In this document: positions 6,695-64,000 of the stretch, piece after piece
How the letters are laid out: every line of letters starts with the position of its first letter
Position numbering within the stretch: position 1 is the stretch's first letter
DNA from: Ischnura elegans
Taxonomy: Eukaryota > Arthropoda > Insecta > Odonata > Coenagrionidae
Direction: 5' to 3'
Length of the DNA: 64,000 nucleotides
NCBI RefSeq assembly: GCF_921293095.1
Contig: NC_060258.1
Location: forward strand, 1,798,001-1,862,000
The notes under the pieces: model-generated
The model's input: the letters and a program-made list of their open reading frames with translations, nothing else
The model's database searches: none
What the model was told of the DNA's origin: nothing
Translations under genes and position numbers: made by a program

Positions 6695-9600
6695 TTAGAC
6701 TTTATTAAAAATGTTTATTTCTCTGAGAAACCGAAATGTACAGATTAAGTTGGTAGGGTGGTCTCCTAAAAGGGTTTTTAGGTCTCCCCCTAGATTATTT
6801 CGTCTTCGCGCTTCGCGGTACTTAACACAATCTAGCATGATGTGTCTAATACTTAATGGACATTTACAATCCCCACATTGGGGAGGTTCCTTCTCTTCAG
6901 TAAAGAGATACGCATGGGTCAGGGGGCTGTGCCCTACCCTCAATCGTGTAAGTACTACTTCCTCTCTCCGATTACTACGAGCTGAGGAGGGCCACGCTGC
7001 TACCATGTCCTTGATGCCACGGAGCTTGTTATTATTTAGAATCCTCCATGACTCCCTCCATTTTCCAAATACCACATTTCTTAGAGATGCTCGTAAGTCC
7101 TCGTGGGGAACCAGCGTTGAGACAATAACTTCGTTATTCAGAGCTTCCTTGGCCATAGCGTCTGCTATCTCATTCCCGGCTATCCCCTCATGTCTCGGTA
7201 CCCACAGAAAATGGATATTCAAACCCTTTCTCGAAAGGGTCAGCAGGAGAGAGTGTATTTCTTGCACGATCGGGTGCACGGGTGAGAAGCCAGAGATGGC
7301 TTGTAGCGAGCTCCTGGAGTCAGTGCATATTACAAAGGAGCCGCCGTGGTCACCTAGGGCTTCTAGAGCTGTCCTTATGGCATAAAGCTCCGCCGTGTAC
7401 ACACTGCACATCGGGTGAAGCTTTGCTCTGATGTTCCCGTGGATAGGGGAGAACACTGCACATGCACAAGCAGAGTTATCTTTCGAACCGTCAGTGTAAA
7501 CGGGGGTAAGGTTGGGGTGATTCCATCGGAACATGGCAAACAAACGCTGGTACTCCGAGGGAGTTGTGGAAGACTTCGGTCGAGATCGTGAAAGAATATT
7601 CACCACCGGAGTGGGAGTGATCCAAGGGGGGTGTTCCGAGAATGAAACAGGATACACTTCAGGTAGCGTGAATTCGCATCCGCGAATAAAATCGTTAAAA
7701 CGAACGCTTACTGGTCTGGTTGCTTTAGTCCTTCGATTAAAAACATTAATAAAATGGGGTTTAAAAAGTAAACTATAACATGGGTGACTCGTCATTGCTA
7801 AAATTTTGGAAACGTAGCTACAAAGAAGCCAGGTCCTTCGGTAGCATAGAGGAGGCTCGCCTGCGTCGGTATATATACTGGGAATCGGGCTGGTCCTAAA
7901 CGCCCCAGTGCATAGTCGCAGACCTGCGTTGTGCACTGAATTAAGTGCTTTCAAATACGTCTCGCGAGCGGACGCATACACGAATGAGCCGTAGTCTAAT
8001 TTCGACCGCACCAGTGTGCGGTAAAGTAAAATTAAGGTGGTGCGGTCTGCTCCCCAAGATGCGTGGCTTAAAAACTTTAAAATGTTCAAAGACTTCAAAC
8101 AGTTTACCTTGACAGAATTAATGTGCTCCTTCCAGTTGAGTTTGTGGTCGAGGGTCCTTACCAGAAAACGGACTGATTCCACAAATGGGAGGTTTCTACC
8201 ACCTAGGTGTAACGTGGGATTTACATGGACGCCCCGAGTGCGAGAAAAGTGAACGCACTTTGTTTTCTCCAAAGAGAAAAGGAAGCCGTTATTTTGGGTC
8301 CATTTGTGAAGTTTATTGATGGTGAGTTGCGCCATACGCGATGCATTCACGACCCTAGATGATCTGCAGAAAATCGCGAGATCATCCACAAACAGTGACC
8401 CTAACACTGGCTCCTTGATGCAGTGAGCTATGTCGTTGATCGCAATAGCGAACAACGTCACGCTCAGAACGGAGCCTTGGGGAACTCCGTTGTCAAGAGG
8501 GTAAAAATTTGACAACAACTGTCCCGTCCTTACTTTAAAAACACGGTTGGTTAAAAAATTTTGTATAAAAATGGGCAAACAGCCTCTAAAACCCCACTCG
8601 CGTAATACGCGTAGAATCTTACGTCGCCAGACCCGGTCGTTAGCCTTCTCTAAGTCGAAAAATACACCGACTACGTGTTGGCGGAGAAGGAAGGCTTCTT
8701 GGATGAAATTTTCAATTCTAACCAAGTGGTCCATTGTGGAACGGTTCCGTCTGAATCCGCATTGTATCCTAGAGAGGAGTTTTCGACGCTCCAGCCACCA
8801 AATGAGACGTCGATTTACCATTCGCTCCATTAACTTGCACAGGCAGCTGGTGAGAGAAATCGGCCGGTAAGAATTCGGATCAGCTCGGTCTTTTCCATGT
8901 TTTGGGATGGGAACAATGACGGACTCCCGCCAGGACGGAGGAAAATCCCCATTGGCCCAGAGCTGATTAAAAGTTTCAAGGATTTCCAGCAACGCCGATT
9001 CCGATAGATTTCGGAGGAAGGCATTGTGGATCTCGTCGGGTCCTGGGGACGTGTCGTGGGAGTCTTGGATGGCAGATTTCAGCTCCCAAATGGTAAATGG
9101 CATATTGTAGTCTGCCGTTGTTTTAGGCTCCATAAAGGATATAGGGACGTTCTCGAGCCTTTTCTTGAGGATCGCAAAAGAAGGTTCATAGCATTCGTCG
9201 CTGCTCACTTTGGCGAGTAATTGGGCGAATACGTTCCCTATCGCAGCTGGAGAAGTGATAACCTTTCCTTCGACTTCTAGGGAGGATATACCTAGATGCT
9301 GGCTGCTACCCGATATGCTCCTCACCTTACGCCATACCTGTGCAAGTGGAGTCCTGTGGTTGATGGAGGATACATAATTTATCCAGGAGGCCTTCTTTGA
9401 CTCCTTTATAATTAGTCGAGCCTTTGCTCTGAGTCGTCGAAATGAGGCAAGATTAGAGACAGTTGGAAACTTATTAAAAATACGGAGGGCACGCTTCCGT
9501 TTCTTAATAGCTTCGGCGCATTCCTCATTCCACCATGGTACCGCTGGTCGACGGATTGCGCCCTTAGATAAGGGGACACTACGTTTCGCTGCGTCCACTA

Positions 9601-10396
9601 TGCTAGCGGTTAGCACCTCAACGTTCTTTGTTCCGCCCCGAAGAGCATCGTACGTGAAATTAAAAGAATTTTTAAAAATAGACCAGTCGGCTTTGTGGAC
9701 AATCCAGTTGCCCTCGCGGATAAAATTCGTATTGTTAATCTCGTCAGATTTGATTAAAATCGGGAAGTGGTCACTACCACAGAGATCCGTATGGACAGAC
9801 AGTTTCAGTCTTGTAAAAATGCTGCTCGTGCATAAGCACAAATCAATGGAGGAATATTCTCCGTTAAAGGAGTTAAAGCGTGTCCTCTCGCCATTGTTCA
9901 ATAAAAAGAGGTTAAAATCTCGGAAAAAGCTGCTTAAAATCCGTCCCCTTCTGTTGCGTTGGGCAGAATGGCCGCCCCACAGAGGATCATGAGCGTTAAA
10001 GTCGCCCAATAAAATATAGGGTCGCGGCAATTGACGTATGAGGGCTTGAAGGTTATTGTCATTTACCGGAGCATCTTCCGGGAGGTACACGTTGCACAGC
10101 GTTACCTCCATGGGTGCATGGACGGTGACGGCCACAGCCTGGAATGGGGTGGTTAGCCGCACACGGAAGGTGTGTAGGGTATCCCGGACCGCTATTGCTA
10201 CACCACCTTGGGCTCTTCGCCCACTCAAGTCATCCTACCTAGTCACACTATATCCCTTTAAAATTCCCTTGTCTGTCGATTTAAAATGCGTTTCTTGTTG
10301 ACATATACATAAAGGGTTAAAATCATTTATTAAAACAGCCAGCTCCTCCTTATGCCGATAAAATCCATTACAATTCCATTGTAATATATAAGCCAT
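6695..10396 (-). pseudogene. LINE ORF2: endonuclease, reverse transcriptase and RNase H, one stop
   Basis: The start is the ATG at 10396-10394, which opens MAYILQWNCNGF, the expected first strand of an EEP endonuclease. Codon 54 is TAG (10237-10235); the frame is otherwise open for 1233 codons. Endonuclease motifs: QETHF, LLGDFNAHDPLWGG and GSDHFPI. Reverse transcriptase motifs: FFDLEKANDRVW, NGVPQGSVLS and the catalytic FVDD. RNase H motifs: YTDGS, YTAELYAI, CTDSRSS and GNEIADAMAKEA. A C-x2-C-x7-H-x4-C knuckle follows near the C-terminus (CGDC to LDC). The stop lies between two endonuclease motifs, so translation would give no active protein unless it restarted downstream. Confidence 0.93.
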
Positions 10397-10487
10397 AAAA
10401 AGGTTTAAAAAGGGTGAAAGATAAAAACAGAAAAAAAGGATGTAAATAATTAAACTTGAAGCATCATTAGCCCGGATATCTGTGGAA

Positions 10488-11632
10488 TCATCGCTTCAAG
10501 CGACTTTTCCTTCCCTTATTCCTGACTTTTTCGATCTCTGTGTCCGAAATACAGAGATCTTCGTCTATGTCCTTCTGCATCGGTTCCATACCTTTGCCGG
10601 AGGGACCAGGAGAGGTAGTTTTCTCTCGCTGGTCAGGTTTTCTGGTTGTTTTCTTTGCTGTATTTTTGGGAGACACTACGGAGGTGTTAGGGGTGTTTTT
10701 TTATTGTTGCTACTGTTACTCGCATTCGTTTTTTTTAAAACATCTATCTGCATTTCAGGTTCCGTCTGTGTAGAAATGGTGCACTTCTTAACTGGAGCGG
10801 AGGCGATTGCGGCAAAGGAACGCGAGAAAGAGGGGGCACTAAGGGCTTTGAACTTTTTCCTTGCCTCTAGGTAAGATATTTTATCCACAGTTTTAATTTC
10901 CATAATCTTCCGTTCCTCTTTCATTTTCGGGCAATCGCGAGAATAAGCCGCATGCGTACCCTCGCAATTCACGCAGCAGGCCGGTTCAGCACATTTGTCC
11001 CCATCGTGCTTGTCCTTGCCGCAGCGCGGGCAGGTGGCCTTGCCCTCACATCGCGTTGCGATGTGGCCGAATTTTTGGCACTGGAAACAGCGCATCGGGG
11101 CTGGTATGAATGGTCGCACGGGAACTGATTCATACCCTATGAACACTTTGTCAGGGAGCCGGTCACACGTAAATGTAAGCACTACAGAGGTGGTGTTTAC
11201 TATTTCTCCATTCCATTTCGTTGTCATCCGACGAGCGTCGCACACTCCCTGGGATGCCATCTCTTGTTTGATTTCGTCAATGTCCACATATAGTAGGTCG
11301 AAGTGGCTTATAACTCCCCGACAAGTGTTCAGGGTTCGGTGAACCTCCACTGTCACTGGGATGTCGTGCATCAGTTTCATGTTGAGAACCTTCTCACTTT
11401 GCGCCTGGTTTGCCGTTTCGATCAAAAGGGATCCATCCCGTAACTTTTTGGCCGATTTTATATCACCTGGGACCGTAGCAGAGAGGACTTTACGAATTAG
11501 GAAAGGGGACACTTTTTTTAGTGTTTCCCCTTCTTTCTGACATTTCATTATAAGAAATTTATTGTTTTTCATTTCTCCCCCATTCGTTTCCGAACGGGAT
11601 CTTTTGGTTGGAGGTAAGAAGTTAATATCCAT
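10488..11632 (-). pseudogene. LINE ORF1: Gag-like RNA-binding protein, frameshifted near the end
   Basis: I chose the ATG at 11632 (MDINFLPPTKRSR), because the open frame upstream of it is leader sequence. About residues 182-234 hold three zinc knuckles: CFQCQKFGHIATRC, CPRCGKDKHDGDKC and CVNCEGTHAAYSRDC. These bind element RNA in such proteins. The frame ends at 10676. The natural C-terminus (SPKNTAKKTTRK to GRKSRLKR) continues in another frame to 10488. The total of 1145 bases is one short of a whole number of codons. A run of seven T at 10696-10702 is the likely indel site, so a sequencing error is also possible. Confidence 0.85.
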
Positions 11633-12255
11633 ACGCTCGTACAAAATTCGTCCCCTGGGCTCCCCACCCACCACGGAGCCACACATTCGGGACGCCACAC
11701 CGAGATCCGGTGTGGTCGCCAGGGCTACCCAAGGGATATAGGAACCTTCGATAGGAGGCCTCTTTCGGGTTAGAACCTCCAGCGCGGGGGCCCTCCGAAC
11801 CCACACGCCTTCGGCCGCCCTACGGAGACCCCCATATCTCCAGCACTAACCCGTCCTGGCGTACGCTCGGAAGGAGCCGCCAAGCTCCCCAGCCGCCAGG
11901 AGCCGATTGACCGAGCTGGGCTCTTCTCGGCCGCCCGTTTTTCGGGGAATCCAGGGCCGAAGTGGGGTATTGAATTCCGGCCCATACCGGGTTTCCGACA
12001 CCCAGCTGGGTGCCGGAGAACTCACCCACCAGGATCCCCTTCTCCCCCTTGTACGGGTCTCCACGCACGGCAAACACGTGGGTGATTCTGGACGCCAGAT
12101 GTTACGGCTACTCAGAACAGCAGAGTCACATGCTGTCTGGACACTATCCGAGCGAACGACGGGGTTTTTTAACGAGCTTGTCTCCTCGGTGGGCTCGGGT
12201 CCGTGGGGGCGCGGCTCCCCAAAGGAAGAGATTACTCTCTTCCCCCCGTGCGGGA
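11633..12255 (-). promoter_or_regulatory. LINE 5' leader, GC-rich
   Basis: This leader is the most GC-rich part of the left half of the window and contains several overlapping spurious open frames on both strands. In this superfamily the leader carries an internal promoter. I see no specific promoter element and infer the role from position. Confidence 0.6.
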
Positions 12256-14465: not shown

Positions 14466-14812
14466 AGTGCTGGGCCTGTGTCGTCTTCATGTCGAGTCTA
14501 TGTCGGACTTAAGTTGACTTCATGTCGGGCCGGTTTAAGGTCAAATGTCAGGCTGACAGCGTTTTGATATCGGACTGAAGTCGGTTTGGTGTCAGGCTGA
14601 AGTCTGTTTGATGTCGAGCCAATGTCAGTTTGATGTAGGGCCGACAACAGTTTGATGTCGGGGATAAAGTTGATTTTTTGTCGTGCTGAAGTCGGTTTGA
14701 CGTCGAACCGAAGTCAGTTCGATGCACGTCCGATTATTCGCTTCGCGAGTTGGCTGTAGCCTGGCTAAACGTTATCATTTCGACGATAGTCCAACTTCGG
14801 TTCCCGACGTCG
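14466..14812. repeat. Degenerate GTCGGTTTGAT minisatellite, left part
   Basis: Units close to GAAGTCGGTTTGATGTCGG, about 22 bp, recur roughly ten times with much divergence. The same sequence style resumes at 17049-17110 after the Transib element. The transposon therefore landed inside this repeat, which offers many CGTCG targets. Confidence 0.7.
14808..14812. repeat. Left CGTCG target-site duplication of Transib
   Basis: CGTCG at 14808-14812 is repeated at 17044-17048. Transib elements make 5-bp, GC-rich duplications of CGNCG type, so both sequence and length fit. Confidence 0.85.
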
Positions 14813-14853
14813 CACAGTGGTCTGGGGAGCGCTTTTTTCCGGACAAAAGTCGA
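14813..14853 (+). repeat. Transib left terminal inverted repeat, 23-RSS-like
   Basis: Heptamer CACAGTG lies at 14813-14819, the 23-bp spacer at 14820-14842, and the nonamer-like ACAAAAGTC at 14843-14851. The V(D)J consensus nonamer is ACAAAAACC, so seven of nine bases agree. Confidence 0.85.
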
Positions 14854-15192
14854 CTGTCCCATTTGTAGAGGTATATGATGGTGTTACACAACTTAAATAT
14901 ATCTTATAATGCATGCATAATGACATTCTCAAAAAATAAATATGCATTCGCTATTTTTTCTGAATAATTATACTACAACGACGTGTGATGCAATGGTGGT
15001 CTGAAAAACACTTACGCATTTATAAGTCGCCAAATCAAGTTTTACACGAATGAATGGATGTTTTCTCACTTAGAGATAATTACATGACCATTATGCTTTG
15101 GGGGAGATATCTTTAATGAAATTATTTCGTAGAATACTTATTTAATGAATCAATAATTAAGGGAAGCAAATGGATATGAGGAAGTAAAACAA

Positions 15193-15270
15193 TTACTCCT
15201 CATCCGTAGTTTCTTCACTGTCTTTGTACACGGGTGCCGAGTCTACGTTTGGGAATGAAAGCAGTCGTAG
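15193..15270 (-). pseudogene. Transib transposase acidic C-terminal tail
   Basis: The minus strand reads SFPNVDSAPVYKDSEETTDEE and stops at 15193. An acidic end of this kind is usual for these transposases. It is in a different frame from the N-terminal part, and the region between them is missing. Confidence 0.55.
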
Positions 15271-15314
15271 CACCAAAAGGATAGCACAGGTTTTTTTACG
15301 GAAAGAATTTCTTC

Positions 15315-15692
15315 TTAGGGAGGATAAAGACTTGCTGCCATTAGAGATCTGGCCCCTTTCCTGATGGACATAGTATACTGATGTTTAGTCAACTTTGCCT
15401 CAATCATTAAGCCTAATTCCTCGTCTGCATTGTAGGGAAGAACTACCTTGGTGTCAGATCTATGGATATTACAAGCTTGCCTTATATTTCTGGCTCTACT
15501 GGGGCTTATATGAATTGCCTCATCTACCATATGAGCTGCATCGCTTTGTTTGTTTGGCCGAAGACTTGCGTTTGTCGCATAAACCAGCTCTTCAGTTGTT
15601 TTTGTATCGAGAAATTCCGTGGTTCTCGTCCGCTTTGATCGCTCGCACAACGTTTCAAAATTCTTACACGGACCACTGAATGGACTACACAC
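15315..15692 (-). pseudogene. Transib transposase N-terminal region, second exon
   Basis: The frame encodes SPFSGPCKNFETLCERSK, then RARNIRQA, PYNADEELGLMIEAKLTKHQY and SIRKGARS, and stops just after LYPP. I recognise this order from insect Transib-like proteins, where a YTPDEAL-like segment, LSK-QY and a YPPY motif precede the catalytic core. The stop comes where the protein should continue into YPPY. An acceptor-like TTATTTAG or GTGTGTAG lies just upstream; which one is used is unclear. Confidence 0.65.
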
Positions 15693-16098
15693 CTAAATAA
15701 AATCAATCTTTTGATAGGTAATACTCTCATTTACGTAAATGCTTTAATATATCCCATCGATAACATTGAACTTACCCGAGGTAGAGGGTTGAGAAGTTTC
15801 CGAGCTCGTTATCTGGGGCTCGATTTTTTCCCGCCAAAAAAATCAATATCTGAATTAAGCCACAGATTTTTGTTCTGCAAAAACACGTTTATTGTTCTGC
15901 GGCTCTTTTCCCATCTCAGTGTCGCCCGAGTAATGAAAGAAAACAGCAAGTTTTGAATTCTTAGCTTCCTGTCATCTTTCACGTCCGACCTTCCTTGTGA
16001 CCTTAGAATAAGACACCAAAATTGATATGATACGCAAGCTATGGGTTAATGAATCCACTTAGTACGTTGCACGTCGGAATGAAATCACTTCCACCTAC

Positions 16099-16193
16099 CT
16101 TAAAATGTACTCATATAGATGCTTGTAACGAACGCTGTCCTTCTCGGCCCACTTCTCTCGTAAATTGAAAAAATATTCCTTCACGAGTGCCAT
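16099..16193 (-). pseudogene. Transib transposase first exon
   Basis: From the ATG at 16193 the minus strand reads MALVKEYFFNLREKWAEKD, then RYKHLYEYIL, and meets a good donor (AAG then GTAGGT). Position, phase and direction fit a first exon for the frame at 15692-15315. The frame joining depends on which acceptor is used. Confidence 0.55.
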
Positions 16194-17002
16194 ATCCGAA
16201 GACTGGTTCACAGAAAATAAGTATTCAATTTTCACTGAACAATTAGAGGAATCTTAACAATAGCTGGAGTTGTCGCACGCTGGGAGAAGCCTAGTGGCAG
16301 CCGAATTGTTGGTTTAAGCCATGTCAAATAGGCTATATTGTTGCTGATATGGTCACTGAATCATGTAGTGTTTAGGCATGGATAAAATTGTTGCTGATAA
16401 TGATAATAAATGAACCAATTGCGTCTGATAGAGAGACTCAAAACGGAGGATTTTATCAGCGAAAGCGACTTCTCGAGAGATAGCGCGCCATGGCGTTAGG
16501 ATAGCCAGGCGTCTCTGTAACACATTTCGGCTTATAAATTAAAAAAAGGCAACTTAAGGCAGATAACTCTTTCTAAATTGCTTCAAGGATAGTATTTTCT
16601 TTGCATCCTATTACATGAGAACACAGTGGTAGAGCGTGGTTTTTTTATATCTCTAACTGTGCATAATTTAAAAAAATATTTGCATATGATATTATAGCGC
16701 GCTATCCTGACACCCCGGACGCTTTCATAACATTAATAATTAGGTTTATGGATCATAAAAAAGGCGAGTTTGCTGAAATAAACTCAAAAGAAAACAAAAA
16801 AATGGCTATTGGTTATAGTATTTATAAAGTTAAAAAGCCGTCAAAAATTTGAGAAATTACACTCAAACAACTTTCGCTAAGAACCACTCCTGTAATTCGA
16901 AAAATGGGCAGTAGAGGAAGATATAAAGATCTATTTACAATGGAATGATGTTTTAGCTTCACCTATTTAGCATTTTTGGATAGTTTGAACGCAATCGAAA
17001 AA

Positions 17003-17043
17003 TCGACTTTTGTCCGCCGAAAAGGGCATCTCAGACCACTGTG
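17003..17043 (-). repeat. Transib right terminal inverted repeat, 23-RSS-like
   Basis: Read on the minus strand, CACAGTG (17043-17037) is followed by 23 bases and ACAAAAGTC (17013-17005). The right end therefore repeats the same spacing as the left. Confidence 0.85.
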
Positions 17044-17115
17044 CGTCGGATCGACCCGTAGACGACCTATGTCACCGTCGTATCGACATTGGACCGACAT
17101 GAAAATGCTACCTGG
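17044..17115. repeat. Right CGTCG duplication and resumed minisatellite
   Basis: CGTCG at 17044-17048 is the right target-site duplication. GTCGTATCGACATTGGACCG-like words after it belong to the same diverged minisatellite as 14466-14812. Confidence 0.7.
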
Positions 17116-62829: not shown

Positions 62830-64000
62830 AATAATGGATTAAGAGTGAAAGCTTCTTAATGAGATAATAAGGAGACTGGTGGTATATATGGAACGAATAA
62901 ATAAAAGTGAAGGAAGGATGAAAAGTGCTATAGATGGCAATGTATTAATAGGAAGTATGAAGTGCTAGACATGGTGGGTTATGATTGGTAGCTTCTAAAT
63001 GAGATAAGGAGACTGGAGGTACGTATGAAGCGACGGAATATAGGTGAAGGAATGATGGAAAAAATGCAATAGATAGCAAAATGTTAATAGGAAGTATAAA
63101 GTGCTGGACATGGTGGGTAAAAGTGGAAGCTTCTAAATGAGATAAGTAGGAGACTGGGAGCATGTAAGAAGCGAGTGAATAAAGTTGATGGAATGATGAA
63201 AAAAGTGCTGTAGAGGGCAATGTGTTAATAGGAAGTATGAAGTGCTATACATGGTGGGTTAAGAATGGCAGCTTCTAAATGAGATAAGAAGGAGACTGGA
63301 GGTATGTATGGATCGAATGTATAAAGGTGAATGAATGGTGAAAAGAGTGCTATGAGGGCAATATGTAAGTAGGAAGTATGAAGTGCTGGATATGGTGGGT
63401 TAAGAGTGGAAGCTTCTAAATGAGATAAGATAGAGACTGGAGTTATTTATGGAGCGAGTGAATGAAAGGTGAAGGAATGATGAAAAAAGTGCTATAAATC
63501 GCAATATGTTCATAGGAAGTATGAAGTGCTGGATATGGTGGGTGAAAAGTGGAAGCTTCTAAATGAGATAAGAACATGAATAGAGGTATATATGAAGCGA
63601 GTAAATAAAGGTGAAGGAATTATGAAAAAAGTGCTATAGATGGCAATATGATAAGAGGAACTATGGAGTGCTGGATATGGTGGGTTAAAAGTGGAAGCAT
63701 CTAAATGAGATACGAAGAAGACTGGTGGTATATATGGAGGGAGTAAAAAAAGGTTAAGGTATGATGAAAAAAGTGCTATAAATCGCAATATGTTAATAGG
63801 GAGTATGAAGTGCTGGATATGGTGGGTTAAAAGTGGAAGCATGCAAATGAGATAAGAAGGAGACTAGAGGTATGTATGAAGCGACGGATAATAGGTGAAA
63901 GAATGATGGAAAAAATGCTATAGATGGCAATGTGTTATAAGGAAGTATGAAGTGCTGGATATGGTGGGTTAAGAGCGGTCTCTCCTAAATGAGCTAAGAA
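62830..64000. repeat. Satellite array, about 141-bp units, at least eight copies
   Basis: The landmark GCTTCTAAATGAGATA recurs at about 62850, 62991, 63129, 63271, 63412, 63555, 63697, 63839 and 63980, steps of 138-143. Each unit also has AGGAAGTATGAAGTGCTGGA and TATGGTGGGTTAA. Copies are about 85-90 percent alike by eye. The array continues past the window end. Open frames on the minus strand here are repeats, not genes. Confidence 0.93.

Follow-up and report, generated by a model that had tools for sequence, protein, structure and literature searches.

The DNA analyzed here (the window) is a stretch of 64,000 nucleotides from the genome of Ischnura elegans (Odonata), and it contains a 2231-bp element that carries a heptamer, a spacer, and an A-rich nonamer-like block at each end (Table 1). 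The ends of Transib transposons resemble the signals of V(D)J recombination (RSSs), and the Transib transposase is a relative of the RAG1 core. An earlier note, made from the letters of this DNA, had taken the element to be a Transib and its ends to be unusually close to the 23-RSS of the jawed vertebrates. Just to the left of the element lies a degenerate, GTCG-rich minisatellite with a 22-bp unit (14563-14724), and the insertion sits in CpG-rich surroundings. Elsewhere in the window there are a non-LTR retrotransposon (6695-11845, minus strand), in which one frame of 1179 aa resembles endonuclease/reverse transcriptase/RNase H and another of 389 aa resembles gag, as judged by eye, and a 142-bp unit repeated in tandem 8.3 times (62835-64000) up to the window's end.

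Table 1. Features of the element and its borders, in window positions.
Feature	Position	Strand	Basis
Transib element, internally deleted and non-autonomous, 2231 bp	14813..17043	.	both ends, target-site duplication (TSD), genome copies, transposase-bearing relative
TSD CGTCG, left copy	14808..14812	+	sequence; 5-bp TSD in 22/24 copies
TSD CGTCG, right copy	17044..17048	+	sequence; 5-bp TSDs of genome copies
Left heptamer CACAGTG	14813..14819	+	sequence, pattern search, genome copies
Left spacer, 23 bp	14820..14842	+	pattern search, genome copies
Left nonamer-like block ACAAAAGTC	14843..14851	+	pattern search, genome copies, genome-wide pattern count
Right heptamer CACAGTG	17037..17043	-	sequence, pattern search, genome copies
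Right spacer, 23 bp	17014..17036	-	pattern search, genome copies
Right nonamer-like block ACAAAAGTC	17005..17013	-	pattern search, genome copies, genome-wide pattern count
N-terminal transposase exon remnant (VKEYFFNLREKWAEKD...)	16098..16184	-	translation against the same stretch in L062 ORF 715-966; coordinates by hand
Transposase remnant, nonamer-binding-like region, 125-aa open frame	15315..15692	-	basic RSKR motif after a degraded GRP; start of the HzTransib-aligning part
Deletion junction	15273..15278	.	1383 bp of L062 absent in the window copy, three catalytic motifs included
Transposase C-terminus remnant (...NVDSAPVYKDSEETTDEE; relative NLDSAPVYIDSEETTDEE)	15193..15275	-	upper border approximate

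The geometry claimed for the ends, CACAGTG followed by 23 bases and ACAAAAGTC, is present at 14813-14851 on the plus strand and at 17005-17043 on the minus strand, CGTCG abuts the element on either side, and ACAAAAGTC agrees with the vertebrate nonamer ACAAAAACC at seven of the nine letters at both ends, as had also been claimed. The two ends agree in their outermost 12 bases and in bases 29-39 and differ in the middle of the spacer. With up to three mismatches allowed, the two-block pattern has exactly two matches in the window; of 100 shuffled versions of it, not one contained two. A looser pattern (heptamer-N23-ACAAAA, one mismatch allowed) finds the same two sites only; taken alone it is weak, with six of 100 shuffles reaching two matches.

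Translation of the minus strand yields transposase pieces. Searches of Pfam and PDB with the window remnant gave chance-level similarity to an RNase, CdiI, and other names (E = 0.046-0.13, 0.88, and 1.3-9.1), and because neither database holds a significant match, membership in Transib rests on a relative found in the same genome (L062, with its left end in L068; C5:64724479-64728105). This relative aligns with the window element in two long parts, at 86-88% DNA identity. Its ends are likewise 23/23 with ACAAAAGTC, and CGACG flanks it on both sides. Its exons match HzTransib of Helicoverpa zea (PDB 6pqn, with five further entries) with E values of 1.1e-26 and 3.8e-89, aligning with chain residues 8-155 and 155-463, and it is through this autonomous-type relative that the Transib identity of the window element is established. 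The window copy retains the N-terminal part of the transposase, including a frame that is 84% identical over residues 7-125 to the relative at C5:64725873, and the last residues; the three catalytic motifs of L062, which begin at 1917, 2346, and 2967, all fall in the stretch that it lacks. A RAG1-core-like DDE transposase (in the relative), 5-bp GC-rich TSDs, and CAC-starting ends with an RSS-like heptamer were all found. By its sequence, the element is a decayed Transib with an internal deletion, and it is non-autonomous. It is itself an ordinary disabled copy, and it represents a further Transib family in a genome rich in Transibs.

In a search of this genome (1.72 Gb, 110 contigs), at least 47 stretches matched the element, with 40 of 172 candidates scored. 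Forty loci were fetched, of which one was the window copy again; 23 of the 39 further loci are two-ended, and with the window copy there are 24 two-ended copies. Exact 5-bp TSDs abut the heptamers in 22 of these 24 (CGACG in seven, CGGCG and CGTCG in five each, CGCCG in three, CGCCA and CGGCA in one each), L012 and L027 being the two copies without one, and this places the boundary of the element directly outside CACAGTG, as proposed. It should be mentioned that the flanks of L010 and L017 are similar, and that their TSDs may not be fully independent. Among the 48 ends, CACAGTG is present in 46 (not in L011 left and L017 right), CAAAA at the 23-bp position in 47 (not in L025 left), and the full ACAAAAGTC in 43 (not in L013, L015, L017, L020, and L025, all left ends); heptamer and full ACAAAAGTC occur jointly in 41. 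The alignment of these ends thus went the way that the earlier note had anticipated: the family conserves both the spacer length and the ACAAAA block, the CGNCG duplications recur (20 of 24 copies, with CGNCA in two), and the 48 ends do not show the variable spacing, missing ACAAAA block, or different boundary that would have counted against a two-part end. Divergence from the column majority is 1.3-2.2% in 23 of the 24 copies and 6.1% in L027, which points to a single, fairly recent burst. Since the copies lie only about 2% from their majority, conservation within the family tells little about selection.

Some copies have histories of their own. The most diverged two-ended copy, L027 (C1:166378355-166380605), has no abutting duplication; it is followed by three extra bases and then by TGCCA, which repeats its left flank. 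Eleven loci (L029-L039, on C8, C7, C1, C19, C3, C6, C4, C5, and C2) hold the same truncated copy, about element positions 792-2231, with a common right flank, cggcgtatcgct, and none is farther than about 4.2 Mb from a contig end; they were apparently spread by duplication of subtelomeric DNA and not by transposition. Four copies (L042-L045) have in common roughly 200 additional bp at element position 1604-1615, bordered by a 12-bp repeat, apparently a nested insertion that was later carried along by Transib transposition.

The two-block end is not restricted to the window family. Genome-wide, CACAGTG-N19..27-ACAAAAGTC has 1203 exact matches (619 and 584 by strand), against six for the reversed control. 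Among the 100 of these ends that were listed, all on C1, the spacer is 22 bp in 60, 23 bp in 39, and 21 bp in one; that is, 99 of the 100 have 22 or 23 bp, though 19-27 was allowed. By their spacers, the listed ends fall into nine clusters, and the left and right ends of the window family make up two of these; among the listed ends there are 25 neighbouring pairs resembling whole elements (18 of type 22/22, six 23/23, and one 23/22). A protein search of the genome gave at least 150 transposase-like matches (150 of 814 candidates scored), with identities from 100% to 29% and frames of up to 714 aa, several of the scored matches having open frames of 559-714 aa. The window family sits in a large Transib radiation.

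L061, which belongs to another Transib family, has an open 710-aa frame (6pqn, E = 9.8e-123, aligned with residues 9-481 of the 497-residue HzTransib chain), and both of its ends read CACAGTG-23-CCAAAA and are bounded by CGTCG. Five further loci were fetched, and the search for their ends demanded only CAC, an inverted repeat, and a duplication. TSD-bounded ends were obtained in three: L064 (22/22, TCAAAA), L066 (23/23, ACAAAAGTC), and L067 (22/22, GCAAAA and CCAAAA). In L063 and L065, no TSD pair bounding the ends was found within the fetched stretch, and both were left out of the following count; the left end of L063 has CACATAG, a differing heptamer, with an ACAAAA that is not independent because the search pattern asked for CAAAA, and that of L065 has CACAGTG with CAAAA at the 22-type position. 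CAAAA stands at position 31 or 32 in all ten ends of five TSD-bounded elements with different spacers, the window element included, and the chance of this per end is 0.0005-0.0065 (2000 shuffles); as each element contributes a pair of ends that depend on one another, the ten ends amount to at most five independent observations. Common to these five elements are CACAGTG, a spacer of 22-23 bases, and a CAAAA core.

Five fetched transposase loci have open frames of 489-714 aa. All three catalytic motifs, mapped by hand onto the HzTransib triad D126/D225/E436 (as named in PMC6941560), are kept in L061, L063, L064, and L065, and the frame of L066 ends before the last motif. In an alignment of six transposases, every row has G-R-P (G-R-R in L063), an F four residues on, and a basic R-x-K-x-R block, and in all six this region precedes the part that aligns with HzTransib; the solved HzTransib chain is matched from residue 8 on only, and the GRP part of the profile has no counterpart in it. 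A whole-protein profile of the six is colinear with the nonamer-binding region of RAG1 in 3jbw, GRP falling on GRP, at only 0.3 bits for this region; most of the RAG1 match comes from the C-terminal part (3jbw, E = 2.4e-05). When the profile of the GRP-containing region alone was compared with PDB, RAG1 was not listed up to E = 10; HzTransib was (E = 7.5e-10, in the later part of the region only), along with two chance-level names. For these reasons, the likeness of the GRP-containing region to the nonamer-binding region of RAG1 is suggestive and not proof. Transibs have been reported to contain an equivalent nonamer-binding domain with GRP (PMC9435367).

How close do these ends come to a vertebrate 23-RSS? 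The "unusually close" of the earlier note holds in part: the heptamer, the spacer to within one base, and the CAAAA core stand, and the exact nonamer and the 12/23 pairing do not. CACAGTG, a 23-bp spacer, and an ACAAAA core are common to the window ends and the vertebrate signal, whereas the nonamer tail is GTC in the window family and ACC in vertebrates, which leaves seven of the nine letters of ACAAAAACC. Vertebrate RSSs pair 12/23; in the host genome, 24 of the 25 paired elements among the listed ends are 23/23 or 22/22, and one is 23/22. The window ends bound a transposon, and a vertebrate RSS flanks a gene segment. It is very unlikely that the window ends are 23-RSSs in the full vertebrate sense and equivalent in function to V(D)J signals. 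The consensus heptamer, the 23-bp spacer, and the seven matching nonamer letters at both ends would agree with such a reading, but the exact nonamer ACAAAAACC at 19-27 bp is not clearly enriched in the genome (13 matches against seven in the control, two of the 13 looking like Transib ends by eye), and spacers of 22 bp are the commoner ones among the 100 listed ends. Nor was there an excess of 12-bp-type partners (spacing 10-14, ACAAAAGTC nonamer only; five genome-wide against eight in the control), and a 12/23 asymmetry with this nonamer was not found in the host genome. In L061 and L064, the nine letters that best match the RSS nonamer lie elsewhere than at the 22-23 position.

The opposite reading, that ACAAAAGTC is a mere part of the terminal inverted repeat, kept by recent shared ancestry, and that only the heptamer matters, is possible but somewhat unlikely. 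It draws on the low divergence of the copies, which makes conservation within the family little informative, on the ends of HzTransib, described as resembling the RSS nonamer hardly or not at all (PMC8289069), and on the seven-of-nine RSS-nonamer matches that some ends also have at further distances. Against it stand CAAAA at position 31 or 32 in all ten ends of five TSD-bounded elements with different spacers, and ACAAAAGTC lying 22 or 23 bp from the heptamer in 99 of the 100 listed ends across nine spacer clusters. As for an inverted repeat formed by chance in a CpG-rich minisatellite flank, the array at 14563-14724 is the one circumstance in its favour, and its probability is practically zero: no shuffle contained the two-block pair, and the genome copies, 39 further family loci with both ends in 23, refute it.

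We are highly confident in the explanation that the element is a non-autonomous Transib which has lost about 1.4 kb, has kept its ends, would be mobilisable in trans, and has ends that are most likely read in two blocks in a RAG1-like manner. Its structure, copies, duplications, and deletion, the relationship to HzTransib, and the conservation of both blocks are direct observations; the course of events may be pictured as follows. An autonomous Transib with a multi-exon transposase lost about 1.4 kb, the three catalytic motifs included. As both ends were kept, the element could be mobilised in trans, presumably by the transposase of intact relatives, and it spread at CGNCG sites. A RAG1-like transposase dimer would read two blocks per end, CACAGTG at the cut and the CAAAA block 22-23 bp further in, the latter perhaps through the GRP-containing N-terminal region. 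Cutting at the heptamer border would produce blunt element ends and hairpinned flanks, as may be expected from the literature on HzTransib and RAG, and insertion into CGNCG would follow with a 5-bp stagger.

The Transib superfamily was reportedly described by Kapitonov and Jurka in 2005 from Drosophila and Anopheles. The window family shares with it the RAG1-core-like transposase (in relatives), 5-bp GC-rich duplications, and a heptamer with an A-rich nonamer-like block. Most Transib families have symmetric ends (PMC8289069), and symmetric RSS-like Transib ends, as well as Transib heptamers and nonamers identical to those of RSSs, have already been published (PMC8355894 and PMC6941560). Some families have symmetric spacers of 20-22 bp and others a 12/23 asymmetry, according to PMC8355894, whereas the window family is symmetric 23/23. 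Autonomous Transibs are typically single-copy or number a few copies at most, as stated in PMC4411706; the host genome, in contrast, has at least 150 scored transposase-like matches and 1203 matches to one end pattern. HzTransib is reported to cleave by a nick-hairpin reaction, which closes the flank into a hairpin and leaves the end of the element blunt (PMC6941560), and it differs from the window family in the reported lack of a clear nonamer. Drosophila hopper and transib2 likewise make 5-bp duplications but target CCANTGG (PMC3276498), whereas the window family uses CGNCG or CGNCA. The RAGL transposons (ProtoRAG and protostome RAGL) also have a CAC terminus and 5-bp duplications; they carry RAG1L and RAG2L, and, unlike those of the window family, their ends are about 15-17 bp long or have TR5 in place of an RSS-like nonamer (PMC7204232 and PMC8289069).

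A further observation concerns Transib ends that lie head to head. At C5:1935731/1935732, in locus L049, a window-family copy (L012) borders with its right end on the left end of a second Transib-like element. CACTGTG is followed directly by CACAGTG without a duplication, and a 23-type end here meets one of 22-type; the other terminus of the second element was looked for and not found. A genome search for the 16-base CCACTGTGCACAGTGG gave four sites, against none in the control. CAAAA blocks stand on both sides in two of the four, L049 and L069 (C6:67323399/67323400), the latter joining two 22-type ends, again CACTGTG abutting CACAGTG without a duplication; L070 and L071 may be chance, because they have CAAAA on one side only. 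Ten further sites, against none in the control, have a single CGNCG between two heptamers. These ten sites, known from pattern matches alone, are explained by insertion into a neighbour's duplication, and no joining is needed.

The two zero-gap sites, L049 and L069, fit blunt end joining of a signal-joint-like kind, though a small deletion or an assembly error is a possible source. It is rather improbable, in our estimate, that the Transib ends of this genome work as complete two-part recombination signals which a nonamer-binding region reads, and that blunt joining at the heptamers can unite ends from different families within chromosomes. If this were true, a Transib enzyme would be making the counterpart of the V(D)J signal joint. 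It is still argued whether the two-part RSS of heptamer and nonamer predates the vertebrates, and with 1203 end matches, five open-frame loci, and an N-terminal GRP-type motif in one genome, the origin of the RSS becomes a question that is directly testable by binding and excision assays.
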